From Candidatus Wolframiiraptor sinensis (GTDB lineage: Archaea; Thermoproteota; Nitrososphaeria_A; Caldarchaeales; Wolframiiraptoraceae), in the NCBI GenBank assembly GCA_023268255.1, contig JALNJX010000003.1:124001-188000 (forward strand): 64,000 nt of DNA, written 5' to 3'. The translations under genes were made by a program, and so were the position numbers. The notes beneath the pieces were generated by a model. It saw only the letters and a program-made list of their open reading frames with translations, did not search any database and was not told the DNA's origin. Positions 25,954 to 52,626 of the stretch are shown here, one piece after another (the stretch's first letter is position 1; each line of letters begins with the position of its first letter).

Positions 25954-26355
25954 ATGAGGGTTCCGGGATATTGGAGAAACATGCCATTCCTCTATAGGCT
26001 CGCGGGTTGGAAATGTGTCCACTGCGGAGCCTTCCACAATTATAAGCCGGTGGTCTGTAAGAGGTGCAGGTCCAGGGAGTTCGCCCAGATTGAGCTACCC
26101 GCCTCGGGCAGGCTGATAGCATACACGACCGTCAGGTCTCCTCCGAAGGAGTTTGCGCAGGTCGCGCCCTACGCTATAGGCCTCATAGAGCTCGATGATG
26201 GGACGAGAATAATCTCCCAGCTCACCGACTTCAGGGAGGATGAGCTGAGAGATGGAGCTAGAGTTGAAGCGGTCTTCCGGAGAATTAGAGTTAACGGAGA
26301 TCAGGGTATAATCGAGTACGGCTATAAGTTTAGGCCCGCGCTTAGGCGGTCTTGA
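25954..26355 (+). CDS. DUF35 OB-fold/rubredoxin-like scaffold protein
   Basis: A 133-aa protein with an N-terminal zinc ribbon (KCVHCGAFHNYKPVVCKRC: two CxxC pairs) and an OB-fold (LPASGRLIAYTTVRSPPKEF...YAIGLIELDDGTRII). This is the DUF35 family that bridges thiolase and HMG-CoA synthase and supplies a shared CoA-binding site. Third gene of the operon, 14 bp after the thiolase, with a GGGGTGATGAG ribosome-binding region. The 3' end overlaps a convergent coiled-coil gene by 14 bp. Confidence 0.93.
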   Translation: MRVPGYWRNMPFLYRLAGWKCVHCGAFHNYKPVVCKRCRSREFAQIELPASGRLIAYTTVRSPPKEFAQVAPYAIGLIELDDGTRIISQLTDFREDELRDGARVEAVFRRIRVNGDQGIIEYGYKFRPALRRS

Positions 26356-27151
26356 GCTGGCCCTTCAACCTCTTCCAGAGGTATAGAGTCGCGTACTCCC
26401 TCGGGATCCCCTCGCGCTGGGCTATGACCTCGATCTGGGATCTGATCTTTACCGCCGCCTCATCGGGGTTCTCATACCTCGTCTGGAGGCTATTAATGAG
26501 CTGCGTAAAGATGGATTCCACGAGCCCCTTATACGATGTTGCTTCATAGACGTTCTCACGCATTCTCCTAAGCTCCTCGATCCTGCTATTAACCTCTTTA
26601 ATCATCTTATCGATCTGGGCGAGCTCCTCTCTCAGCTTTGGGATCATGCTCTCCAACTCCTCCCTCTTCGAGACCGAGATCGGCTTTCCCTGAGACTCGA
26701 GCTGCATTAGCGTATCAAGCTCAACCTGATTGAAGTAGACCTCCTCCTCGATGCTCGAGAACTTCTCCTCCAGCAACCCAGCCAGCTTGCGATACCTCTC
26801 GGCGGCGTCGTCGATATAGCGCACCAGGTCCTCTCTCATGGAGTCCCAGCGCTGGATGAGCTTCTTGAGTATCGTGAGGCTCATCCCGGGATCCTCCAGA
26901 AACTTTTTCTGAGTGACCTCCTCCCTAACCCTTATCTCCTCGATCTTTCCGATGACGAGCTCATAGGCGGCCTCAGCGTCCGCGAGGGCCTTCTCGAGCA
27001 TTACATCCTCTCTCCTCTCGGCGGCACCGGCCTCCTCGACCTCCACCTCTCCGATTGTTGCCTCCACCGGCTTCTCAGCCTCTTCAACAGGCTCTATAAC
27101 GGGCTCAGCCTCCTCCAAATCCGAGTCCTTAATTATGATGCGCTTGGGCAT
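26342..27151 (-). CDS. Coiled-coil protein of unknown function
   Basis: A 269-aa acidic protein from ATG 27151 (a GTG six bases upstream is the alternative; a TATA-like ACTTAAAAGC is 30 bp before the ATG). The first 50 residues are Glu/Val-rich and probably disordered. Most of the rest is predicted long helix with heptad patterns (MIPKLREELAQIDKMIKEVNSRIEELRRM). The last 50 residues (IEVIAQREGIPREYATLYLWKRLKGQLKTA) look like a compact helical end. There is no PRC barrel, so it is not a standard CdvA, but a helical partner of the division or ubiquitin machinery cannot be excluded. I do not recognise the family. Confidence 0.75.
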   Translation of the reverse strand: MPKRIIIKDSDLEEAEPVIEPVEEAEKPVEATIGEVEVEEAGAAERREDVMLEKALADAEAAYELVIGKIEEIRVREEVTQKKFLEDPGMSLTILKKLIQRWDSMREDLVRYIDDAAERYRKLAGLLEEKFSSIEEEVYFNQVELDTLMQLESQGKPISVSKREELESMIPKLREELAQIDKMIKEVNSRIEELRRMRENVYEATSYKGLVESIFTQLINSLQTRYENPDEAAVKIRSQIEVIAQREGIPREYATLYLWKRLKGQLKTA

Positions 27152-27200
27152 CTCCACAAATCCTATAATCGATTGCTTTTAAGTTTATTCGCCGCGATCA

Positions 27201-32022: not shown

Positions 32023-32715
32023 CTAGCTCTCCATGACGATGGCCTTACAGCTGGGGCATATCCCGTTAACGCTCACCCAAGATTCTATGCATCCCCTGTG
32101 AAATAACGCGTCACAGTTGCTGCATCTCACGGCTTCGCCCTCCGATATGAAGTCGAAGCATATGCTACATATTGCTTCCTCGACGTCAGATGCTGGGACG
32201 AGTTTTGTAGTCGCTGGCCTAGGTGGGCTCGGAGCGGCCATGCCGGCTTCAAGGAACTCCGGCGCGGCTGGCGGCACAGCGGTGAATGCCGTTGAAATGA
32301 CCTCCTCCCTTATTGGCGTGAGTATTGCGAGAGCTCCTATGGCCAGCAAGATCACACCCGTGAAGACGGCCGCGAAGAACCCTAGGTCGAACCTCGAGTA
32401 GCTCGAGAGCTCGAGAAGCCAGAACCAATATGAGTATATTGGCGATATCGTCGCGAGGATGCCGCCTAAGATTATCGAGACCCCCAGGACGTTCTTCATG
32501 CTCCTGAGCCCCTTAATGAAGTGGATGAGGATCACGCCCACGCCCGCCAGTGCTCCGCCGATGAGAGACATCATCGTCCCGTATGGGCTCACGAGACCCT
32601 GAACATATTTCTCGGTGCCATCAATCACCTGAACATACCAGCTCAGTAGAAGTGTAAGAACATGAATCGCCCCCATAGCAGCTGCACCCGACCCGATCTT
32701 ATACAGCCTAGACAT
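32023..32715 (-). CDS. Membrane protein with C-terminal C4HC3 RING-like domain (candidate E3)
   Basis: A 230-aa protein. The start is ATG 32715, which follows a strong GGGAGGAGGT; a longer in-frame ATG 36 codons upstream overlaps the TATA-like box and is unlikely. Four hydrophobic segments span about residues 8-30, 45-70, 76-104 and 112-132. After a Pro/Ala-rich linker, the last 48 residues hold eight zinc ligands: CSIC, 11 residues, CSNC, 4, H, 2, C, 10, CPSC. This C4HC3 order and spacing is almost identical to the small RING protein of the ubiquitin-like operon, which lies about 1.4 kb away, including the conserved Trp three residues after the sixth ligand. A membrane-bound ubiquitin ligase is a good hypothesis, not shown. 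Confidence 0.8.
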   Translation of the reverse strand: MSRLYKIGSGAAAMGAIHVLTLLLSWYVQVIDGTEKYVQGLVSPYGTMMSLIGGALAGVGVILIHFIKGLRSMKNVLGVSIILGGILATISPIYSYWFWLLELSSYSRFDLGFFAAVFTGVILLAIGALAILTPIREEVISTAFTAVPPAAPEFLEAGMAAPSPPRPATTKLVPASDVEEAICSICFDFISEGEAVRCSNCDALFHRGCIESWVSVNGICPSCKAIVMES

Positions 32716-32725
32716 TACCTCCTCC
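32716..32725 (-). promoter_or_regulatory. Strong ribosome-binding site of the membrane RING-like gene
   Basis: On the minus strand GGGAGGAGGT lies a few bases before ATG 32715. It decides the start of this gene. A TTTATAAAG box near 32770-32780 is the probable TATA element. Confidence 0.55.
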
Positions 32726-32870
32726 CTAGTTGTGAGCAAGTTCGCACAGCGCCCCCCAGAAGTTCGGTTCTCCCACTTTATAAACGACTCGTAACATGGC
32801 ATGCAACCGGAAGCTATGGCCAAGCGCGGATCAACTTTTTATAACGCTTTGAGGGAATCCTGCCTAGAAA

Positions 32871-33710
32871 ATGGCACCATTTGGCGGAAAGAAGGTCGAG
32901 GAGCTGGAGGATAAAATAGAGGAGAGGCTGAGCCGACTTGAGCGAGAGTTCTCCGCGAGGATAACGCCCCTCAGTGATGCGTTGAAAAAAATAGAGTCTA
33001 GTCTCGCTGAGATCCGGGCGCTTTTAGGGGCGATATCATCACAGCCAGAGAGCATAAGGTCTAGGCTCGCGGTGTTCCTCGAGAGGGCGGAAAAGGTCTC
33101 CGAGGAGCTCGCCCAAGTCAGGCTTTACGAGAGCACGCTTCTCTCGATTCAGGAGGGCTTGAAGGATATCATTGATGCTTTGAGCAAGGAGCGCGAGGCA
33201 ATAAAGAGGGAGGTTGAGGCGTTGTTGAAAGAGAAGAGCGATCTCGCCACTATAAGGCAGGAGCTGAGGAAGTGGGGAAATGAGCTCGACGCTAAGGAGA
33301 AGGAGCTCGCGCTCAGGGAGGCTGAGCTGAGGCAATTCGAGGAGAAGAAGCTCGAGCTTGAGCGCAGGATTTCGGAGCTGGAAAATAACTACCTGAAGAG
33401 TCTAGAGGAGGCAAGAGATAGGCTCGAGAACATGTTCAAGGGCCTTCTCAGGGACTTCAAGATAAGGGAGATACGGATGGAGAGGCTCATAAGAAAAGAG
33501 GCTGAGCTGAGGCAGGAGTTATCCAAGCTCAAGGAGAAGGAGGAGTCGGCAGAGGAGCTCGAGAGGCGAGTTCTCCAGCTGAGAAGCGAGCTTAACATGC
33601 TTGAGGAGCGGAAGAAGAGGCTCGAAGCAGAGATAAAGGAGCTCGAGAATAAGCGGATAAGCCTCGAGAGGCTGATCGCCGAAATGAGGCGCGCGGTCGT
33701 CAGCCCCTAA
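32871..33710 (+). CDS. Long coiled-coil protein
   Basis: A 279-aa highly charged protein almost entirely of Glu/Lys/Arg/Leu heptads (VEELEDKIEERLSRLE..., ELRKWGNELDAKEKELALRE, LRSELNMLEERKKRLEAEI). It looks like an SMC- or myosin-rod-like coiled coil without ATPase domains. It diverges from the membrane RING-like gene (TATA-like region between) and converges with an 11-bp overlap on a second coiled-coil gene. No family is recognisable because low complexity hides homology. A structural or scaffold role near the ubiquitin-like module is only a guess. Confidence 0.75.
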   Translation: MAPFGGKKVEELEDKIEERLSRLEREFSARITPLSDALKKIESSLAEIRALLGAISSQPESIRSRLAVFLERAEKVSEELAQVRLYESTLLSIQEGLKDIIDALSKEREAIKREVEALLKEKSDLATIRQELRKWGNELDAKEKELALREAELRQFEEKKLELERRISELENNYLKSLEEARDRLENMFKGLLRDFKIREIRMERLIRKEAELRQELSKLKEKEESAEELERRVLQLRSELNMLEERKKRLEAEIKELENKRISLERLIAEMRRAVVSP

Positions 33711-34050
33711 TACTCTCCTCGAGCCTCTGAACCCTCTCCGCCAGATCATTAACCACGTCGGTCAGCGTCGTCAGCTTGTCGTTCAGATCCTCCAGCTCCA
33801 ACTCCAGCCTTTTTTCCAAGCTTCTTAAGCCCTCCTCGACGCCCTCCAACCTGGCCTTTAGGTCGTTTAGCTCTGACACGTTAGCCGGCGCCAAGTTTCT
33901 TATCTTCTCCTCAAGCTCCGCAACGGCCTCATCTAGGACCTCGAGGGCTTTCGCCAACCCCTTGACGAAATCATATGTGGGGATCTTGCCCTTGGGGGTC
34001 TCCAAATACTTCGGCTCCAAGACTATGCCGCCCTTTTCAGCCCTACTCAA
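33700..34050 (-). CDS. Small coiled-coil protein downstream of the ubiquitin-like operon
   Basis: A 116-aa protein. An N-terminal segment with a YDFVKGLAKALEVLDEAV helix precedes a heptad-rich C-terminal coiled coil (LKARLEGVEEGLRSLEKRLELELEDLNDKLTTL). It lies 21 bp after the stop of the RING gene on the same strand and so may be the last gene of the ubiquitin-like operon. The Tyr/Phe-rich N-terminal part (EPKYLETPKGKIPTYDF) is less repetitive and could bind a partner. Function unknown. Confidence 0.7.
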   Translation of the reverse strand: MSRAEKGGIVLEPKYLETPKGKIPTYDFVKGLAKALEVLDEAVAELEEKIRNLAPANVSELNDLKARLEGVEEGLRSLEKRLELELEDLNDKLTTLTDVVNDLAERVQRLEESIRG

Positions 34051-34071: not shown

Positions 34072-34305
34072 TCAGGCCTTCTGTAATAAAGGTCTTTTGC
34101 ATATCGGACATGTTCCCCGCTCATCTATCCAGGGCTGAACGCATCTAGCATGCATCTTATTTCCGCAGAAGGGGCACTCAAAGACGAGAACCCCTTCATA
34201 TATCTCCGCGGAGCAGACCGGGCATATATCCGGTTTCTTCTCCTCCTCGAACTCTAGATCCCATTCACCCGCCTTCTTCTCCTCTGCTAATATTATCCTC
34301 TTCAA
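34072..34305 (-). CDS. Small RING-like zinc protein, E3 of the ubiquitin-like operon
   Basis: A 77-aa protein. The N-terminal 28 residues are charged. The rest is a zinc module: CPVC, 12 residues, CPFC, 4, H, 2, C, 10, CPIC, i.e. eight ligands in C4HC3 order. Its start overlaps the E1 stop by 4 bp, so it is cotranslated with E1. In Caldiarchaeum subterraneum the equivalent small RING protein stimulates ubiquitin-like conjugation in vitro, which is the precedent for calling it an E3. The ligand order is closer to RING-CH/PHD-type than to classical RING-H2, which is worth noting. Confidence 0.9.
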   Translation of the reverse strand: MKRIILAEEKKAGEWDLEFEEEKKPDICPVCSAEIYEGVLVFECPFCGNKMHARCVQPWIDERGTCPICKRPLLQKA

Positions 34306-35489
34306 GGCCCATCACCTTCGGAGATCCGAACCCTTAACTGTAGTGGCATGAACCTTCTGCTGGTGGTGATATATAATGTATCGCCCTCACCGATTCCCAG
34401 CTCTGAGATCCTCTTATCATCTGAGAGCCTCCACTCCCGGTATAGTACTTCGGGATCTGGAATGCTGAACATCTCGGCTATCTTCTTCTTAAGCTCTAGA
34501 ATTGTCTCGCTGGGCTTGACGGTGATCGTCAGCCCTTCCTCGACGATGTCCCCGCAGACGAAGCAGTCCGGGCTTCTCTCCAGCTCGGCGATCGTGAACT
34601 GCCCCGAAAGCCCGTCATACACTAGGAGCCCCTTTATGGGCTCTCCGAGCTTATCTCCATGGAGTATCTTGGCTATCTCCGTCGATGCCAATCCGGAGAT
34701 CATGGCGGCGACGCTTTGAAGCGCTGGGAGCTTCGGCCTTAGCTTCTCCCTAATCTCCCTAACAATCTTCAAGGTCTTATCATCGAGTCTCATCAGCACG
34801 CTTTCCTGAGCATACTTCAGATCGTATACTGTCTTGATATCGTGCTCGAAGAGCTTCTCGGCGACCTTCAAGCTTATCTCTATTCCAGCCTGCTTCAGGT
34901 CTTGAACTAGGTCTTCGGGCTTTCTCCTTCTCAGCGTGCACTCGGCGAGCTGCATCTCCTTAGGCATGAGCTCCTCTCCATGGCACTCCAGGCAAGCGGT
35001 CTTCTTCGGAATAACGATCTGGAGGTTGGCGTAAAACCCCTCCATCGCGACGTCCACGAGCGGTTTATTCAACGCGACCGCCAGCGAGTTGAGCCACCTC
35101 CTGACAGGCCAATTATCGAGGCAGGATACCAGGACGTCTGCCTCCTCGAAGATCGACTCATCAAGGTTTCTAACATCATCGAAGATCGGCTCAACTTTCA
35201 CGAGGGGATTCATTTTCCTCAACCTATCGGCGGCAACTATGGCTTTAGGCTCGCCTAAGTTATCATCCAAGAAGAGCATTTGCCTGCTCAAATTCGATAG
35301 CTCGACCACATCATTATCGACTAGAACTAGCTTGCCGATGCCCATTAATGCAAGGTTTTTTGCTACCTCGCATCCGGTTGCTCCAACGCCAACGACCACG
35401 ATCTTAGCCCTAGTAAGATTCTCCTGATCCCAGCCCTCAATCCTGACCTGGCGATCATATCGCTCGAGATCTCTCCGTTCCTCGGTCAT
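34302..35489 (-). CDS. E1-like ubiquitin-activating enzyme
   Basis: A 395-aa single-chain E1-like enzyme. The adenylation domain starts with YDRQVRIEGWDQENL; the ATP loop is GVGATG (34-39); LVDNDVVELSNLSRQ (57-70) carries the Asp and Arg of the family. CxxC at 166-169 and at 309-312 make a zinc site. The likely catalytic Cys is Cys184 (LAECTL), followed by a helical insertion to about 250. Residues about 315-380 (LTITVKPSETILELKKKI...) form a ubiquitin-fold domain like the E2-recruiting UFD of eukaryotic E1. MoeB/ThiF lack that domain, so this is a eukaryote-type E1. A CTCATATAAG box 32 bp upstream suggests its own promoter. It overlaps the RING gene. Confidence 0.94.
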   Translation of the reverse strand: MTEERRDLERYDRQVRIEGWDQENLTRAKIVVVGVGATGCEVAKNLALMGIGKLVLVDNDVVELSNLSRQMLFLDDNLGEPKAIVAADRLRKMNPLVKVEPIFDDVRNLDESIFEEADVLVSCLDNWPVRRWLNSLAVALNKPLVDVAMEGFYANLQIVIPKKTACLECHGEELMPKEMQLAECTLRRRKPEDLVQDLKQAGIEISLKVAEKLFEHDIKTVYDLKYAQESVLMRLDDKTLKIVREIREKLRPKLPALQSVAAMISGLASTEIAKILHGDKLGEPIKGLLVYDGLSGQFTIAELERSPDCFVCGDIVEEGLTITVKPSETILELKKKIAEMFSIPDPEVLYREWRLSDDKRISELGIGEGDTLYITTSRRFMPLQLRVRISEGDGP

Positions 35490-35515
35490 TCTACCATGGA
35501 GAAGCGGCTCACGTG

Positions 35516-35526
35516 GCTTATATGAG
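35516..35526 (-). promoter_or_regulatory. TATA box of the E1 gene
   Basis: On the minus strand this reads CTCATATAAGC, centred 32 bp before the E1 ATG at 35489. It implies that E1-RING can be transcribed separately from Ubl and E2. Confidence 0.5.
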
Positions 35527-35558
35527 TATTATTTCTCGCCCATTTCAGGGCTCCCCGG

Positions 35559-36038
35559 CTAATCCTGAAAGGCGTACTCCGGCCTAGCATACAGCTCGAT
35601 GTATCTTCTGACTCTCGCCTCGAAAATATCCGGCCTATACTTCATCTCAGCGGCGGCGAACGTGTTTAAAGGATCATCGGGATTCGGGTTATTGAGTAGG
35701 TTCCTTAAAGCCTCTATGACGGAGAAGAGGTGGAGCGAGGGACTCCAGTCATTCTTGAAGATCGACTCGCAGATTCTCGCGGGAACCTCATCCGTGAAGT
35801 TCGGATGCCAAATCCTCGTCCACCAGATGACGTCGGGAGGCGTGTAGGGGAATGCTCGGGGAACGAGCACCTCGACCTTGAAGAATCCGCCCTCATAGAG
35901 ACCCTCGCCAATGATCACTCCTCGGTAGTGCGTCAGCTGATTATCCACTATGTCGAAGGTAGGCTCATTCTCTCGCATCAACTTGTATTCTAGCGCAAGC
36001 CTCCTACTCCACAGAGCCTCGGGAAGCTGCGTTTTCAA
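35559..36038 (-). CDS. E2-like ubiquitin-conjugating enzyme
   Basis: A 159-aa UBC-fold protein. The core matches eukaryotic E2s: an N-terminal helix (RRLALEYKLM), GVIIGEGLYEGGFFKVEVLVPRAFPYTPPDV (beta sheet and the PxxPP turn), HPN at 78-80, the catalytic Cys90 in ARICESI, and WSPSLHLFSVIEALRNLLNNPNPDDPLN. The HPN Asn and the WSP motif that support catalysis are intact. It would take activated Ubl from E1 and pass it to substrates with a RING partner. It starts with TTG 36038, about 36 bp after a CGTTAAAACT box. It lies between Ubl and E1 on the same strand. Confidence 0.94.
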   Translation of the reverse strand: MKTQLPEALWSRRLALEYKLMRENEPTFDIVDNQLTHYRGVIIGEGLYEGGFFKVEVLVPRAFPYTPPDVIWWTRIWHPNFTDEVPARICESIFKNDWSPSLHLFSVIEALRNLLNNPNPDDPLNTFAAAEMKYRPDIFEARVRRYIELYARPEYAFQD

Positions 36039-36108
36039 GCTATTACTCCTATATCCGAGAGGGAAGTAATTAGTTTTAACGCCGAAAATCGGGGATTATC
36101 CGCGAGAA

Positions 36109-36345
36109 TTATCCTCCGACAGTTCTAGTTATCAGTATGAGCTTATCTCCATCCTGCGCTCCTATTGACTCGAGCGTCTCCGTGTCCTTAAGCGCCCTAC
36201 CCCTGTAGGTGAGCCTTGTTGTATCTGGTGGAAGCTTCTTCATGGCGCAAACCTTAGCCCTGATAGCTCCGATTGTCGTGGAGGGTGAGACATCAAGCTC
36301 GATGGGATTACCCCCTCCCACGGCGGGAATAATCCTAATCTTCAT
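36109..36345 (-). CDS. Ubiquitin-like modifier ending exactly in Gly-Gly
   Basis: A 78-aa beta-grasp protein from ATG 36345, which follows a GGAG ribosome-binding site; the longer frame to 36384 runs into the TATA box. It aligns with ubiquitin over its length: TIGAIRAKV for TIENVKAKI, LPPDTTRLTYRGRAL for IPPDQQRLIFAGKQL, and a C-terminal TRTVGG. The last codons before TAA are Gly-Gly, so no tail has to be removed. Relative to ubiquitin, K48 is Arg50, K63 is Asp65, K27 is Arg29, and K29 is kept as Lys31; Arg72 is kept as Arg74. It is the first gene of the Ubl-E2-E1-RING series and diverges from the JAMM protease. Confidence 0.95.
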   Translation of the reverse strand: MKIRIIPAVGGGNPIELDVSPSTTIGAIRAKVCAMKKLPPDTTRLTYRGRALKDTETLESIGAQDGDKLILITRTVGG

Positions 36346-36387
36346 ATCTCCTTCAAACCTCCTGCCTGAGAATAGGGCGACCACACG

Positions 36388-36396
36388 ATATATAAA
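36388..36396 (-). promoter_or_regulatory. TATA box of the ubiquitin-like operon
   Basis: On the minus strand this reads TTTATATAT, about 45 bp before the Ubl ATG. This leaves a short leader containing AGGAGG and GGAG, unlike the leaderless layout of most genes here. Confidence 0.55.
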
Positions 36397-36457
36397 TATG
36401 TTGTGCAGGAATCCTCTAAGAAAGTATTTCTCGAGAGTTTTTCAGTAAGATTTGGGT

Positions 36458-36474
36458 GAGGGGCGCCACCCCTC
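36458..36474. promoter_or_regulatory. GAGGGG/CCCCTC inverted repeat between Ubl and JAMM genes
   Basis: Six-base arms GAGGGG (36458-36463) and CCCCTC (36469-36474) flank CGCCA, midway between the two divergent TATA boxes. It could be an operator or a hairpin; no evidence distinguishes them. Confidence 0.35.
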
Positions 36475-36495
36475 CCCGAGCTAATAGCATAAGAA

Positions 36496-36505
36496 TGTTT
36501 AAGAT
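36496..36505 (+). promoter_or_regulatory. TATA box of the JAMM protease gene
   Basis: TGTTTAAGAT centred 31 bp before ATG 36531. It supports that ATG rather than the upstream GTG 36456 as the start. Confidence 0.5.
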
Positions 36506-36530
36506 TTTCTTGAACGGTGTTTTCTCCTGC

Positions 36531-37181
36531 ATGAGGGTTAGGATATATCCGCTGGCGCTGGGAAAGATGCTGAAGCACGCCTTAGACGACTTGAATAGGG
36601 AGGTCGCGGGCCTTCTCGTTGGAAAGTACCTGAAGAAGGGAGATGTGCTCGAGATATGGGATGCCATTACGGGCGAGCAGAAATCGACGCCGGGCTTCGT
36701 CTATCTGGAGGAGGAGACTATAGGCGCGGCGGCGGAGTGGGTTCTCAGGAATAGGCCCGGCTTATACATCGTCGGGTGGTATCACTCGCATCCGGGCTTC
36801 GACGTATTCCTCTCAGCGATAGACATTGAGACCCAGAAGCTGTATCAGAGGCTCTTCCCGAAGGCGGTGGCGCTGGTGCTGGATCCGGTCAAGTACGCGA
36901 AGACGAGGAGGCTTCAGGATCTCAATTTCAAGGTCTTCAGGATAAGCCAGAAGAACGAGGTAATCATGGTCCCCGTCTCGATAGGAATTCAGAGGCAGAA
37001 GCTTCTAGAGAGCACTCTAAGGGGAATCGAGACCATGGAGCTGAAGTATATCGGCGGAGGGACGAGCAGGGAGCCGCCGGAGTATGTTGAGGCAGATCTA
37101 GATATCCCAGCAGATAAGCTTACAGGCCCATTAAGTAATCTTCTCAAGAAGATCAGGGATAAGGTTGGCTCCCGCACTTAG
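36531..37181 (+). CDS. Rpn11-like JAMM deubiquitinase
   Basis: A 216-aa MPN+/JAMM metalloprotease from ATG 36531 (upstream in-frame starts at 36456 and 36495 precede or overlap the TATA box). Glu24 in NREVAGLLVG is the general base; the zinc site is H85-S-H87-P-G with Ser95 and Asp98 (YHSHPGFDVFLSAID). It resembles Rpn11, the proteasome-lid deubiquitinase. In C. subterraneum the homologue removes the C-terminal tail of the Ubl precursor and cleaves conjugates. Here the Ubl has no tail, so deconjugation would be its main job. It is transcribed away from the Ubl operon. The C-terminal 80 residues are helical and charged. Confidence 0.93.
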   Translation: MRVRIYPLALGKMLKHALDDLNREVAGLLVGKYLKKGDVLEIWDAITGEQKSTPGFVYLEEETIGAAAEWVLRNRPGLYIVGWYHSHPGFDVFLSAIDIETQKLYQRLFPKAVALVLDPVKYAKTRRLQDLNFKVFRISQKNEVIMVPVSIGIQRQKLLESTLRGIETMELKYIGGGTSREPPEYVEADLDIPADKLTGPLSNLLKKIRDKVGSRT

Positions 37182-41557: not shown

Positions 41558-44500
41558 ATGGAGATTAGGAGCATATACAATTTCGCGTGCAGCAATTGCG
41601 GCGGGGAGATAGCTGATGCTAGGCTGATCGAGGTCGGGGTATGCGAGAAGTGCCTGCCCGGGAAGGCCGCGGGCCTCATCGAGGCGGCAGAGGTGCTGAA
41701 AAAAGCCGGAAGGCTCCAGAAGCTCAAGGAGTACCTGAGAATCCAGCTGGAGTATGAGGAGTTTAGGAGGTTTTTCAGGAGGGCTCTGGGCTTCGAGCCC
41801 TGGGCGCTTCAGGAGGTCTGGGCAAAGAGGATAATCTCGGGCGACAACTTCGCCATAGTGGCTCCCACGGGCGTCGGCAAGACCGTCCTAGGCCTGATAA
41901 TGGCGCTATACCTCTACACGGCGAGGCGTAGGCGATGCTACGTGATAGTCCCGAGCAGCATCCTCGTCCAGCAGCTCTATGAGAAGGCCATCTCCTTCGC
42001 GGAGAGGCTTGGGCTGAGGATCAGCGATGGACTCCTGCTCTATCATGCCGGCCTTAGCAGGGCGGAGAGGGAGAACGTTCTCAATTCTCTGAAAAAGAAC
42101 GATGGCCCGATAATCCTGATAACAACCGACAGGTTCCTAATCGATCACGGAGACCTCCTCATGGGCATAAAGCCATTCGACTTCGTCTTCGTCGATGACG
42201 TGGACTCGTTTCTCAAGTCCCCGAAGAACATTGACAAGGCTATTGGCCTTCTCGGGCTTAGGCCCGAGGCGGTGGATCTCGCGCTCAAGCTCATAGACGT
42301 CAGGATCAAGCTGGCGAGGTCGCCGTCGAAGGGTCTCTCCGATGAGTATGAGCGGCTTTCGAGGGCGGTTGAGGAGGAGAGGAAGAGGAGGAGAGGGATA
42401 CTCGTGGTCGCGGGGGCGACGCTCAGGGGAAGGAGGACGAGGCGGATGATGATATTCGAGCAGCTCCTAGACTTCGAGGTCGGGAGATTCCAGGAGCTCG
42501 TGAGAAACGTCGAGGACCTCTATGTCGAGCCCGCGGGAAGCCCGATCGAGGAAACCGTGAAGCTCGTGAAAAGGCATGGTGGAGGATGCCTAGTGTTCAT
42601 CCCGCATGCCCTTGGAAGATCATATGCCGAGAATGTGGCGGAGGCCTTGGAAAAAGCTGGGATAAAAGTCCACCTATACAGGAAGATGAGCCAGGATATT
42701 CTCCAGAAGTTCGCGAGCGGCGAGATAGACGTGATGGTCGGGATAGCGTCTTCGAGAAGCCCCTTCACGCGCGGAATAGATCTCCCATCGAGAATAAGAT
42801 ATGCGGTCTTCGCCGGAGTCCCGAGAAGGGAGATAAGGATCGAGAAGGCCGAGTATAATCCCGCGAAGCTCCTGATACTCATCCTGAACCTAATGCCGAT
42901 ACTGGATGAGCGCTCGAGGAGGGAGTCCGAGCCGATTATAGCGAAGCTGAGGAAGATAACGCCGCTGACTAAGGATGTGATGGAGAAGATAAGGAGGGCG
43001 GATGAAGAGGGCATGAAGCTCGACGGATTTGAGGGCTACGCGCAGGAGGTGATAGCATCCGCGAGAGAATTCGTTGGAAAGATCCTCAGCCCGCAGCTTC
43101 TGGAGAGGATCGAGAGGGATCTTGACATAACATTGAAGCAGGCCGGGGATGGCTTCACGCTGATAATACCGGATACGACCGGCTACATACAGGCATCGGG
43201 CAGGACTTCGAGGCTATATCCTTACGGGATCATGAAGGGCGCGAGCATCGTGGTCGTCGACGACGCCAGGGCCTTCAGGGGGCTCATATCCAGGCTCAAG
43301 GCCCAGATAGAGGAGCTGGACTTTGAGCCCTACGACGAGAAGAAGGCCGAGCTCATATTCGAGCAAATCGATAGGGAGCGGAAACTCCTCGGCGAGATCC
43401 AGCGAGGAGAGGTCGAGATCCGGGTGAAGGATCTCGTTAGGGCAGCTCTCATGCTCGTCGAGTCCCCGACGAAGGCCAGGACAATCGCCTATCTCTTCGG
43501 AAGGCCCTTCAGGAGGAGAATCGGCCCTCTAACGATCTATGAGGCGGCGATAGGCGGGATGATCGTGGGCGTGGCCGCGACACAGGGCCACATAACAGAC
43601 CTGATCACCGGCTCCGAGAGAGGGCTCCACGGCGTCGAGAATATGAATGGCAGATTCATCCCGGTTTATGGAGTCATAAAGAGGTGCTATAACTGCGGGG
43701 AGCAGTGGGCTGATGGAAGGCCGTGCCCCTCATGCGGATCGGACGACATATTCGATAAGATCGAGATAATCGAGGCCATTAGGAGGCTCGCCCAGCAGTA
43801 TAATGAGGTCTACTTGGCGACGGACCCGGATGCCGAGGGCGAGAAGATAGCATACGACCTCATGTGCCTGATCAAGCCATTCAACCCCAACATCCATAGG
43901 CTGGAGTTCCACGAGGTTACGAGAAGAGCTCTCCTCTCGGCTCTCCAGAATAAGAGAAGCGTGAGCATAAGCCTCGTCGAGGCGCAGCTCCTCCGGCGGA
44001 TCGAGGACAGGTGGATAGGATTCGAGCTTAGCAGAAAGCTCTGGGAGCGCTTCGGAAGCAGGTGGCTCTCGGCTGGAAGAGTCCAGACACCGGTGCTCGG
44101 ATGGATAGCCGAGAGAACGATCGATTATAGGAAGAAGAGAATGATGATCAGAGTCAGGCTCGGCGAGAACCTCTACATCGACCTACTCGAGCCGGAAAAC
44201 GTTGAAGAGGTTTTAAGGGAGTGGGAGGCCGGAAGGCTGAAGGCAACAGTCAGGATACTCGGCGAGGAGGAGGTTACGATCAACCCGCCCCCGCCATATA
44301 CGACCGACTCACTTCTAAGGGATGCATCATCATATCTAAAGCTCTCGGCGGCGAATGCGATGAGAGTGGCGCAAGAGCTCTTCGAGGCCGGCCTCATAAC
44401 GTATCACAGAACGGATGCGACTACGGTCTCCCAGGTTGGAATGAGTATAGCAAGGGAGTACCTGAGCAGGATAGATCCAAGCCTGTTCGCGCCTAGGGCT

Positions 44501-45187
44501 TACAGGATGGAGGGCGCCCATGAGTGCATTAGGCCTGTCAAGCCTCTCGATGCGGAGAAGCTCCGATACTACGTCAGGATAGGGCTAATCACGATACCGG
44601 CTGCTAGGCTGACCGAGACCCATTACAGGATGTATGACTTGATCTTCAGGAGGTTTATCGCGAGCCAGTGCAGGCCAGCCAAGGTAATCACCCAAAGGAT
44701 CTCGGTGGATGTTCTGGACAACAGCGTCGAGTTATCCAGGGATGTGAAGCTCCTGGATAAGGGCTTTCTCGAGTTCTACCCGGTAATCAGGATCGCTGAT
44801 AGGGTCGAGGCGGGCGAGTATCCGGTGAGCGGGCTGGAGATGAGAAAGGTTCCATCGGCCTGGCTCCTGACCGAGGGAGATGTCGTCGCGCTGATGAAGG
44901 AGAGGGGAATCGGTAGGCCAAGCACCTACAGCAAGATAATCGAGACGCTTCTCGAGCGCGGCTACGCGATAGAGAGAAATGGAAGGCTCATAGCGACCAA
45001 GAAGGGCATAGCGGTATACCGATACCTCATAGAGAGGTTTGGGGACTACGTCTCGGAGGAGCTCACTAGGAGGCTTGAGGCAGACATGGATCGCGTCGAA
45101 AGCGGCAAAGCGGACTACCAGAAGATACTTGAGGAGCTCTACCAGGAAGTTATGGCGATCAGAGCCGCCCCGGCGGTCAGCAGATAG
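41558..45187 (+). CDS. rgy: Reverse gyrase
   Basis: A 1209-aa reverse gyrase in one chain. An N-terminal zinc finger (CSNCGGEI...CEKC), an SF2 helicase module with Walker A APTGVGKT near residue 105 and DDVDSFL in place of DEAD, and a topoisomerase IA module starting near 640 (LMLVESPTKARTIAYLFG). A second zinc finger is CYNCGEQW...CPSCG. The catalytic Tyr949 is in GLITYHRTDATT. The enzyme puts positive supercoils in DNA and is found in essentially all hyperthermophiles. The length is typical and no frame break is seen. The HAD gene follows 11 bp later. Confidence 0.97.
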   Translation: MEIRSIYNFACSNCGGEIADARLIEVGVCEKCLPGKAAGLIEAAEVLKKAGRLQKLKEYLRIQLEYEEFRRFFRRALGFEPWALQEVWAKRIISGDNFAIVAPTGVGKTVLGLIMALYLYTARRRRCYVIVPSSILVQQLYEKAISFAERLGLRISDGLLLYHAGLSRAERENVLNSLKKNDGPIILITTDRFLIDHGDLLMGIKPFDFVFVDDVDSFLKSPKNIDKAIGLLGLRPEAVDLALKLIDVRIKLARSPSKGLSDEYERLSRAVEEERKRRRGILVVAGATLRGRRTRRMMIFEQLLDFEVGRFQELVRNVEDLYVEPAGSPIEETVKLVKRHGGGCLVFIPHALGRSYAENVAEALEKAGIKVHLYRKMSQDILQKFASGEIDVMVGIASSRSPFTRGIDLPSRIRYAVFAGVPRREIRIEKAEYNPAKLLILILNLMPILDERSRRESEPIIAKLRKITPLTKDVMEKIRRADEEGMKLDGFEGYAQEVIASAREFVGKILSPQLLERIERDLDITLKQAGDGFTLIIPDTTGYIQASGRTSRLYPYGIMKGASIVVVDDARAFRGLISRLKAQIEELDFEPYDEKKAELIFEQIDRERKLLGEIQRGEVEIRVKDLVRAALMLVESPTKARTIAYLFGRPFRRRIGPLTIYEAAIGGMIVGVAATQGHITDLITGSERGLHGVENMNGRFIPVYGVIKRCYNCGEQWADGRPCPSCGSDDIFDKIEIIEAIRRLAQQYNEVYLATDPDAEGEKIAYDLMCLIKPFNPNIHRLEFHEVTRRALLSALQNKRSVSISLVEAQLLRRIEDRWIGFELSRKLWERFGSRWLSAGRVQTPVLGWIAERTIDYRKKRMMIRVRLGENLYIDLLEPENVEEVLREWEAGRLKATVRILGEEEVTINPPPPYTTDSLLRDASSYLKLSAANAMRVAQELFEAGLITYHRTDATTVSQVGMSIAREYLSRIDPSLFAPRAYRMEGAHECIRPVKPLDAEKLRYYVRIGLITIPAARLTETHYRMYDLIFRRFIASQCRPAKVITQRISVDVLDNSVELSRDVKLLDKGFLEFYPVIRIADRVEAGEYPVSGLEMRKVPSAWLLTEGDVVALMKERGIGRPSTYSKIIETLLERGYAIERNGRLIATKKGIAVYRYLIERFGDYVSEELTRRLEADMDRVESGKADYQKILEELYQEVMAIRAAPAVSR

Positions 45188-52438: not shown

Positions 52439-52567
52439 CCTTAGATAGGAGATCCTAAGCATTCTCTGGATGTTTCATAGTGTTTAGAGCGGGCAAGCGA
52501 TAGGAGGAGAGGAGAATGGTAGCCCGGCCCGGATTCGAACCGGGGTCCTCGGGGCTCTCCTCGGAGA

Positions 52568-52590
52568 GCCCGATCCAGAGCCCGAGATCC
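52568..52590 (-). other. Anticodon-loop region with canonical intron boundary of tRNA-Gln
   Basis: This covers the 5' anticodon stem, the CTG anticodon and the first bases of the intron. The intron continues to about 52551 on the minus strand. Exact borders are inferred from stem pairing and could shift by a few bases. Confidence 0.5.
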
Positions 52591-52626
52591 TTAACCCCCA
52601 CAACTATTCTGACCAGCTGTGGGTTT
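52591..52626 (-). other. Probable non-canonical intron in the D loop of tRNA-Gln
   Basis: About 34 of these 36 bases are extra relative to a standard D arm. The ends can pair (AACCCACA with TTGTGGGGGTT) into a helix, and the insertion restores a normal D loop when removed. Exact splice points need RNA evidence. Confidence 0.6.

Follow-up and report, generated by a model that had tools for sequence, protein, structure and literature searches.

The stretch of DNA analysed here (hereafter the window) comprises 64,000 nucleotides of the hot-spring archaeon Candidatus Wolframiiraptor sinensis (GCA_023268255.1, contig JALNJX010000003.1, positions 124,001 to 188,000), part of contig 3 of a 1.23-Mb genome that is 92.7% complete, and it carries the genes of a ubiquitin cascade. 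Five of these genes, encoding a ubiquitin-like modifier (Ubl), an activating enzyme (E1), a conjugating enzyme (E2), a small RING finger protein (srfp) and an Rpn11-type JAMM deubiquitinase, are a new member of a cascade that is already known in kind from Caldiarchaeum subterraneum. Beyond srfp a conserved block continues through two coiled-coil proteins, cc2 and cc1, to a second, membrane-anchored RING protein, memRING (Table 1). We consider it probable that the whole constitutes the ubiquitin cascade of the order Caldarchaeales, one which works with two RINGs and coiled-coil adaptors and in which Rpn11 acts in deconjugation.

The five-gene cascade

All five genes lie where a first reading made from the DNA letters (the sequence-only reading) had placed them, and their identities are borne out by Pfam profile matches far above chance. 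The 3.1-kb extent which that reading gave to the system is too short, since the conserved block runs on to position 32023. On the minus strand, 70 bp separate the Ubl from the E2 and 69 bp the E2 from the E1, the E1 and srfp genes overlap by 4 bp, and cc2 follows srfp on the same strand after only 21 bp, such that cc2 probably belongs to the same operon. The JAMM gene is divergent from the Ubl operon, and comparison with relatives suggests the ATG at 36531 as its start; cc1 is convergent with cc2, their 3′ ends overlapping. Identity of the E2 with the E2s of Candidatus Wolframiiraptor and of one further archaeon amounts to 92-96%, which places the genome in the Caldarchaeales (Aigarchaeota).

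The locus was gathered from 44 genomes of the order. Among the full-length homologues the catalytic residues do not vary: Cys184 of the E1, both of its CxxC pairs (166/169 and 309/312) and the ATP-site residues that were checked are identical in 41/41, the His78-Pro-Asn motif and Cys90 of the E2 in 43/43, and the active-site residues of the JAMM (Glu49, His110, His112, Ser120 and Asp123) in 40/40. The AlphaFold model of the E1 (mean predicted local distance difference test score, pLDDT, 86.6) finds its best Foldseek match, over its full length, in the NEDD8 E1 subunit UBA3 (E 1.6e-28), in an alignment that covers the C-terminal ubiquitin-fold domain at about residues 318-390. Matches of the E2 in the PDB are of the UBE2K type, and the JAMM matches the CsRpn11 structure 6fju (E 1e-65). 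The domain and motif assignments of the sequence-only reading are sustained for all five proteins, and where it had allowed that the expected folds might be lacking or the catalytic cysteines might vary, the E1 fold proves to be UBA3-like and the cysteines are invariant. Fold and active-site chemistry are shared with the eukaryotic UBA3 (the NEDD8/ubiquitin E1), UBE2K-type E2s and Rpn11; unlike the eukaryotic E1, however, the E1 here is a single chain of 395 residues.

The small protein srfp had been described as RING-like with eight ligands, and these are indeed invariant in 20/20 sequences, in the order C4HC3 (C28 C31 C44 C47 H52 C55 C66 C69). That order is also found in RING-CH and PHD fingers. 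In the window srfp the E2-contact positions, which are of the RING type, are occupied by V and W, and the last Cys is followed by a basic K. Mutants of the C. subterraneum srfp have been reported, of which I30Q abolishes and W58A impairs ubiquitylation; R69A was also described (PMC5654768).

In C. subterraneum the cascade runs from Csub1473 (rpn11) through 1474 (ubiquitin) and 1475 (E2) to the E1 and srfp (Hennell James 2017, PMC5654768; Fuchs 2018, PMC6043591). The statement that the layout is known from that organism and was reconstituted in vitro agrees with PMC5654768, down to the divergent Rpn11, and the likeness extends to the genes, their order, the catalytic residues and the RTVGG end of the modifier. 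In the genome taken to be that of C. subterraneum (G003, locus L044; its ubiquitin tail is identical to the published CGEPIRRAA), cc2, cc1 and memRING also stand in the same order, with Tyr in memRING where the window protein has Trp.

Within the order the cascade is essentially universal: 43 of the 44 genomes have the canonical E1, E2 and JAMM, and the one without them is only 57% complete. The phylum sample held 398 genomes, 354 of them outside the order, and in these a UQ_con match was found in nine, six of them strong; the six share another arrangement, in which the E1 begins with a Ubl domain. The earlier statement that few genomes carry such a system therefore stands across the phylum and fails inside the order. 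A plasmid search with the E1 (tblastn) gave MoeB-like matches only, at <60% identity. In this regard, the passages found of an Aigarchaeota survey (Hua 2018, PMC6053391) record E1, E2, E3 (ligase), ubiquitin and deubiquitinase in all six bins studied, and contain no description of a membrane RING or of coiled coils.

A ubiquitin without a precursor tail

As the sequence-only reading had it, the Ubl ends in Gly-Gly. Its closest solved archaeal structures are those of C. subterraneum ubiquitin (E 1e-39), and the RTVGG end is invariant across 43 Ubl sequences. In C. subterraneum, Rpn11 must remove the nine-residue tail CGEPIRRAA from pro-ubiquitin (PMC5654768). The window Ubl, in contrast, has no tail, and the requirement for cleavage after Gly-Gly is absent, the stop codon following straight upon it. 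There is no residue after Gly-Gly in 20 of the 43 Ubls, among them the window Ubl, those of seven congeners and of genus g2, and most of those from family f3. The others carry hypervariable and mutually unrelated tails of 1-20 residues (for example NI, VYVE, CGEPIRRAA and GRLWRPTQSYLNLCGIRGWP), and the presence of a tail switches at least three times on the E1 tree. In other words, the precursor tail is a variable and not a defining trait of the Caldiarchaeum-type cascade. Cleavage of a pro-ubiquitin is assumed in Hua 2018 (PMC6053391), whereas nearly half of these Ubls (20/43) have nothing to cleave.

Because the Ubl is encoded already mature, Rpn11 is not needed for its maturation here. The JAMM active site is nevertheless intact in the tail-less lineages, and deconjugation is therefore favoured as the job for which Rpn11 is selected; the simplest reading of these sequences would be that deconjugation, rather than maturation, keeps the enzyme under selection. 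The tail-less lineages offer a natural separation of its two roles. The RTVGG end has a practical side as well, in that the tryptic remnant on a modified lysine would be TVGG (+314.159 Da) and not plain GG. The Ubl and E2 of the W. gerlachensis enrichment (PMC9246946) are 96% identical to those of the window, and the question of the substrates could be approached by a search for TVGG remnants in that enrichment.

The extended block

In families f1, f2 and f4 of the order the genes run JAMM, Ubl, E2, E1, srfp, cc2, cc1, memRING. Counted over the fetched loci that contain both partners, srfp directly neighbours cc2 on the same strand in 37/37 cases, cc2 neighbours cc1 in 38/38, and cc1 neighbours memRING in 31/31. 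Residues T18, P19 and G21 of cc2 are invariant in the alignment, and cc1 occurs in 40 of the 44 order genomes and, at E 1e-20, in none of the 354 others. In family f3 the four genes from srfp to memRING are absent beside the E1, and the four-gene block is intact elsewhere in eight genomes (L064-L071). Searches with the window proteins had missed them at the E2 locus, and their apparent loss was set aside once RING and profile searches showed the relocation. An apparent loss of the E1 in three genomes of genus g4 was likewise discarded, the E1 lying on another contig (L077-L079). In genus g11 memRING stands apart, with srfp, cc2 and cc1 together in the single genome that has a readable locus (L072, L073).

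Table 1. Features of the ubiquitin locus in the window (window coordinates)
Feature	Position	Strand	Evidence and remarks
Ubl, ubiquitin-like modifier, 78 residues	36109-36345	-	Pfam ubiquitin 1e-13; ends RTVGG, then stop
E2, ubiquitin-conjugating enzyme, 159 residues	35559-36038	-	UQ_con 7e-29; HPN 78-80, Cys90
E1, activating enzyme, 395 residues	34302-35489	-	ThiF 2e-60; ubiquitin 1e-7 on C-terminus
srfp, small RING finger protein, 77 residues	34072-34305	-	zf-RING_2 1e-8
Rpn11-type JAMM deubiquitinase	36531-37181 (reading frame open from 36456)	+	JAB 3e-18
cc2, coiled-coil protein, 116 residues, N-terminal TPxG motif	33700-34050	-	Alignment, linkage
cc1, coiled-coil protein, 279 residues	32871-33710	+	Linkage, order-wide distribution
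memRING, second RING protein	32023-32739 (start uncertain, reading frame open to 32823)	-	zf-RING_2 8e-9
memRING RING domain, model residues 185-226	32044-32169	-	Model
memRING four-helix membrane domain, claudin-like topology	32320-32718	-	Foldseek

The membrane-anchored RING

The AlphaFold model of memRING (mean pLDDT 88.9) has long hydrophobic helices at residues 2-25, 46-66, 72-102 and 113-134, with a beta hairpin between the first two; the RING lies at the C-terminus, beyond a disordered linker. The RING is matched by zf-RING_2 in 25/25 members with all eight zinc ligands invariant; of the two E2-contact residues, the Ile at C-x-I-C is present in 24/25 and the Trp after it in 23/25. The basic residue after the eighth ligand varies: the window protein and others of its family have Lys there, while family f3 and part of f2 and f4 lack it. 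Since this Ile and Trp occupy the positions equivalent to I30 and W58 of srfp, they support an E2-dependent E3 role, and Foldseek relates the domain to the RNF165 and RNF12 RINGs solved with UbE2D2. On these features memRING is probably an E3 ligase.

For the membrane part, Foldseek returns claudins and TARPs, with claudin-3 (6ake) at E 6e-4, claudin-19 (3x29) at a template modelling (TM) score of 0.58 by target length, and TM scores ranging from 0.4 to 0.6. The modelled topology of helices and sheet fits the Claudin/PMP22/TARP layout; the similarity is weak, there is no Pfam match among the families listed and no Cys pair in loop 1, and the resemblance may be one of convergence.

Full-length memRING is present in 41 of the 44 order genomes; no genome among the 354 sampled from elsewhere in the phylum has it. 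Exactly two RING matches occur in 36/44 genomes, normally one of the srfp and one of the memRING type, and the remaining counts are mostly explained by fragmented assemblies. The two RINGs are therefore proposed as the whole E3 set of the Caldarchaeales. A second E3 adjacent to the C. subterraneum operon is mentioned in Fuchs 2018 (PMC6043591), and the published experiments on the archaeal system, in the passages available, were made with a single soluble RING and with a substrate taken from a different archaeon. In the main texts of the open-licence papers searched, no mention was found of the memRING membrane domain, the coiled-coil genes, the order-wide block or tail-less ubiquitins.

Proposed mechanism and alternative readings

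The observations made here concern the genes and their linkage, the folds of the products and the residues that relatives conserve; the chemistry of E1, E2, srfp and Rpn11 has been shown for C. subterraneum only. By analogy, the E1 would adenylate the free Gly-Gly end of the mature Ubl and take it onto Cys184, after which its C-terminal ubiquitin-fold domain would recruit the E2, which would accept the Ubl on Cys90. The soluble srfp and the membrane-anchored memRING would then promote its transfer to substrate lysines, with cc1 and cc2, encoded between the two RINGs, probably acting as scaffold or substrate adaptors. Rpn11 would remove the tag. Tagged proteins probably go to the proteasome, of which three subunits are encoded in the genome, making degradation possible.

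The most serious alternative is that the five genes alone are the ubiquitin system, and that memRING, cc1 and cc2 serve some other function and are kept beside it by general synteny. In its favour, memRING adjoins the housekeeping gene glyS across the whole order, so that general synteny may contribute to that end of the block, it is separated from srfp in genus g11, and neither it nor cc1 (which lies on the opposite strand) is on the Ubl-operon transcript. Such an account would, however, have to accommodate the unbroken same-strand adjacency of srfp and cc2 with its short gap in the window, the E2-contact residues retained by a RING which, with srfp, makes up the only RINGs of most genomes, and the restriction of cc1 and full-length memRING to the order that bears the cascade. 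We regard it as unlikely but not negligible. Beyond the glyS neighbourhood and the strand of cc1, a further point weighs against the two-RING cascade, namely that the basic linchpin residue is wanting in the memRING of family f3 and of part of families f2 and f4; the proteasomal fate of tagged proteins, too, is only an assumption.

Sulphur transfer or SAMP-like modification as the main role, after the manner of archaeal UbaA/SAMP, is suggested by the resemblance of the E1 adenylation domain to MoeB and UbaA, and is very improbable given a dedicated E2 and RINGs, an E1 with Cys184 and a UBA3-like C-terminal domain, and a separate MoeB/UbaA-like protein elsewhere in the same genome (G000:C2:157815). 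An anti-phage system akin to bacterial E1-E2-JAB operons can scarcely be credited either, for although the E1 and the JAMM give partial PADLOC matches (to E1-E2 and JAB models), the Ubl, the E2 and both RINGs give none, and the system is single-copy, order-universal and set in stable housekeeping synteny, as opposed to the patchy occurrence of defence islands.

Returning to the cascade with two RINGs, family f3 is instructive. In all 5/5 srfp sequences aligned from it the E2-contact Trp is gone, and in 4/5 the Ile position carries Ala, yet the basic residue is retained; its memRING, conversely, retains Ile and Trp and shows Gly where the basic residue would stand. This reciprocity fits heteromeric or specialised RINGs, although a division of labour in f3 is only a pattern in the alignments. 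A bolder extension, which we advance tentatively and rate as somewhat doubtful, is that srfp and memRING are parts of a single E3 complex tethered to the membrane, with cc2 and cc1 as the bridge between them, and that the claudin-like RING protein of this complex marks proteins in the membrane or bound to it. Should the membrane RING and the coiled coils belong to the system, its natural targets would likely lie at the membrane, and a minimal prokaryotic system would have a division of labour between two E3s.

Related loci and neighbouring genes

The other Thermoproteota loci L115-L120 share Ubl, E2 and E1 with the window, and L115, L116, L119 and L120 also a JAMM; they differ in an E1 with an N-terminal Ubl domain, and full-length memRING was not found in them. 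The JAMM reading frame of those four loci is much longer, at 527-595 residues, and its protease domain is followed by a hydrophobic stretch. Genus g11 of family f3 has a second ubiquitin-type system, in which a Ubl is joined via Gly-Gly to an E2 in one protein (L060:8232-9047, and also L061-L063); close by are a JAMM, a zinc protein that weakly resembles a RING and, in L061-L063, an E1. A fusion of similar kind is encoded near 7069 in L120, which comes from a distant genome of the Thermoproteota.

Local rearrangements are seen in two genera. In genus g4 (L026, L027 and L028) a break in the block separates E2 from E1, and the E2 of L026 and L028 is followed by a gene cluster of the hydrogenase/heterodisulphide-reductase-like kind; in genus g5 (L035, L037 and L040) insertions of approximately 0.8-2 kb lie between E2 and E1. 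A 271-residue protein of no confident family match (window 26342-27157; also L033-L058 and L092-L095) is the other neighbour of the JAMM in most f2, f3, f4 and genus g5 loci, even where the JAMM has moved, and is a possible partner for the deubiquitinase. Elsewhere in the window, the sole tRNA found is a Gln (CTG) tRNA at 52517-52614, whose length of 98 bases suggests that it has an intron or that its variable arm is unusual, and a reverse gyrase at 41558-45187 fits a hyperthermophilic life style.

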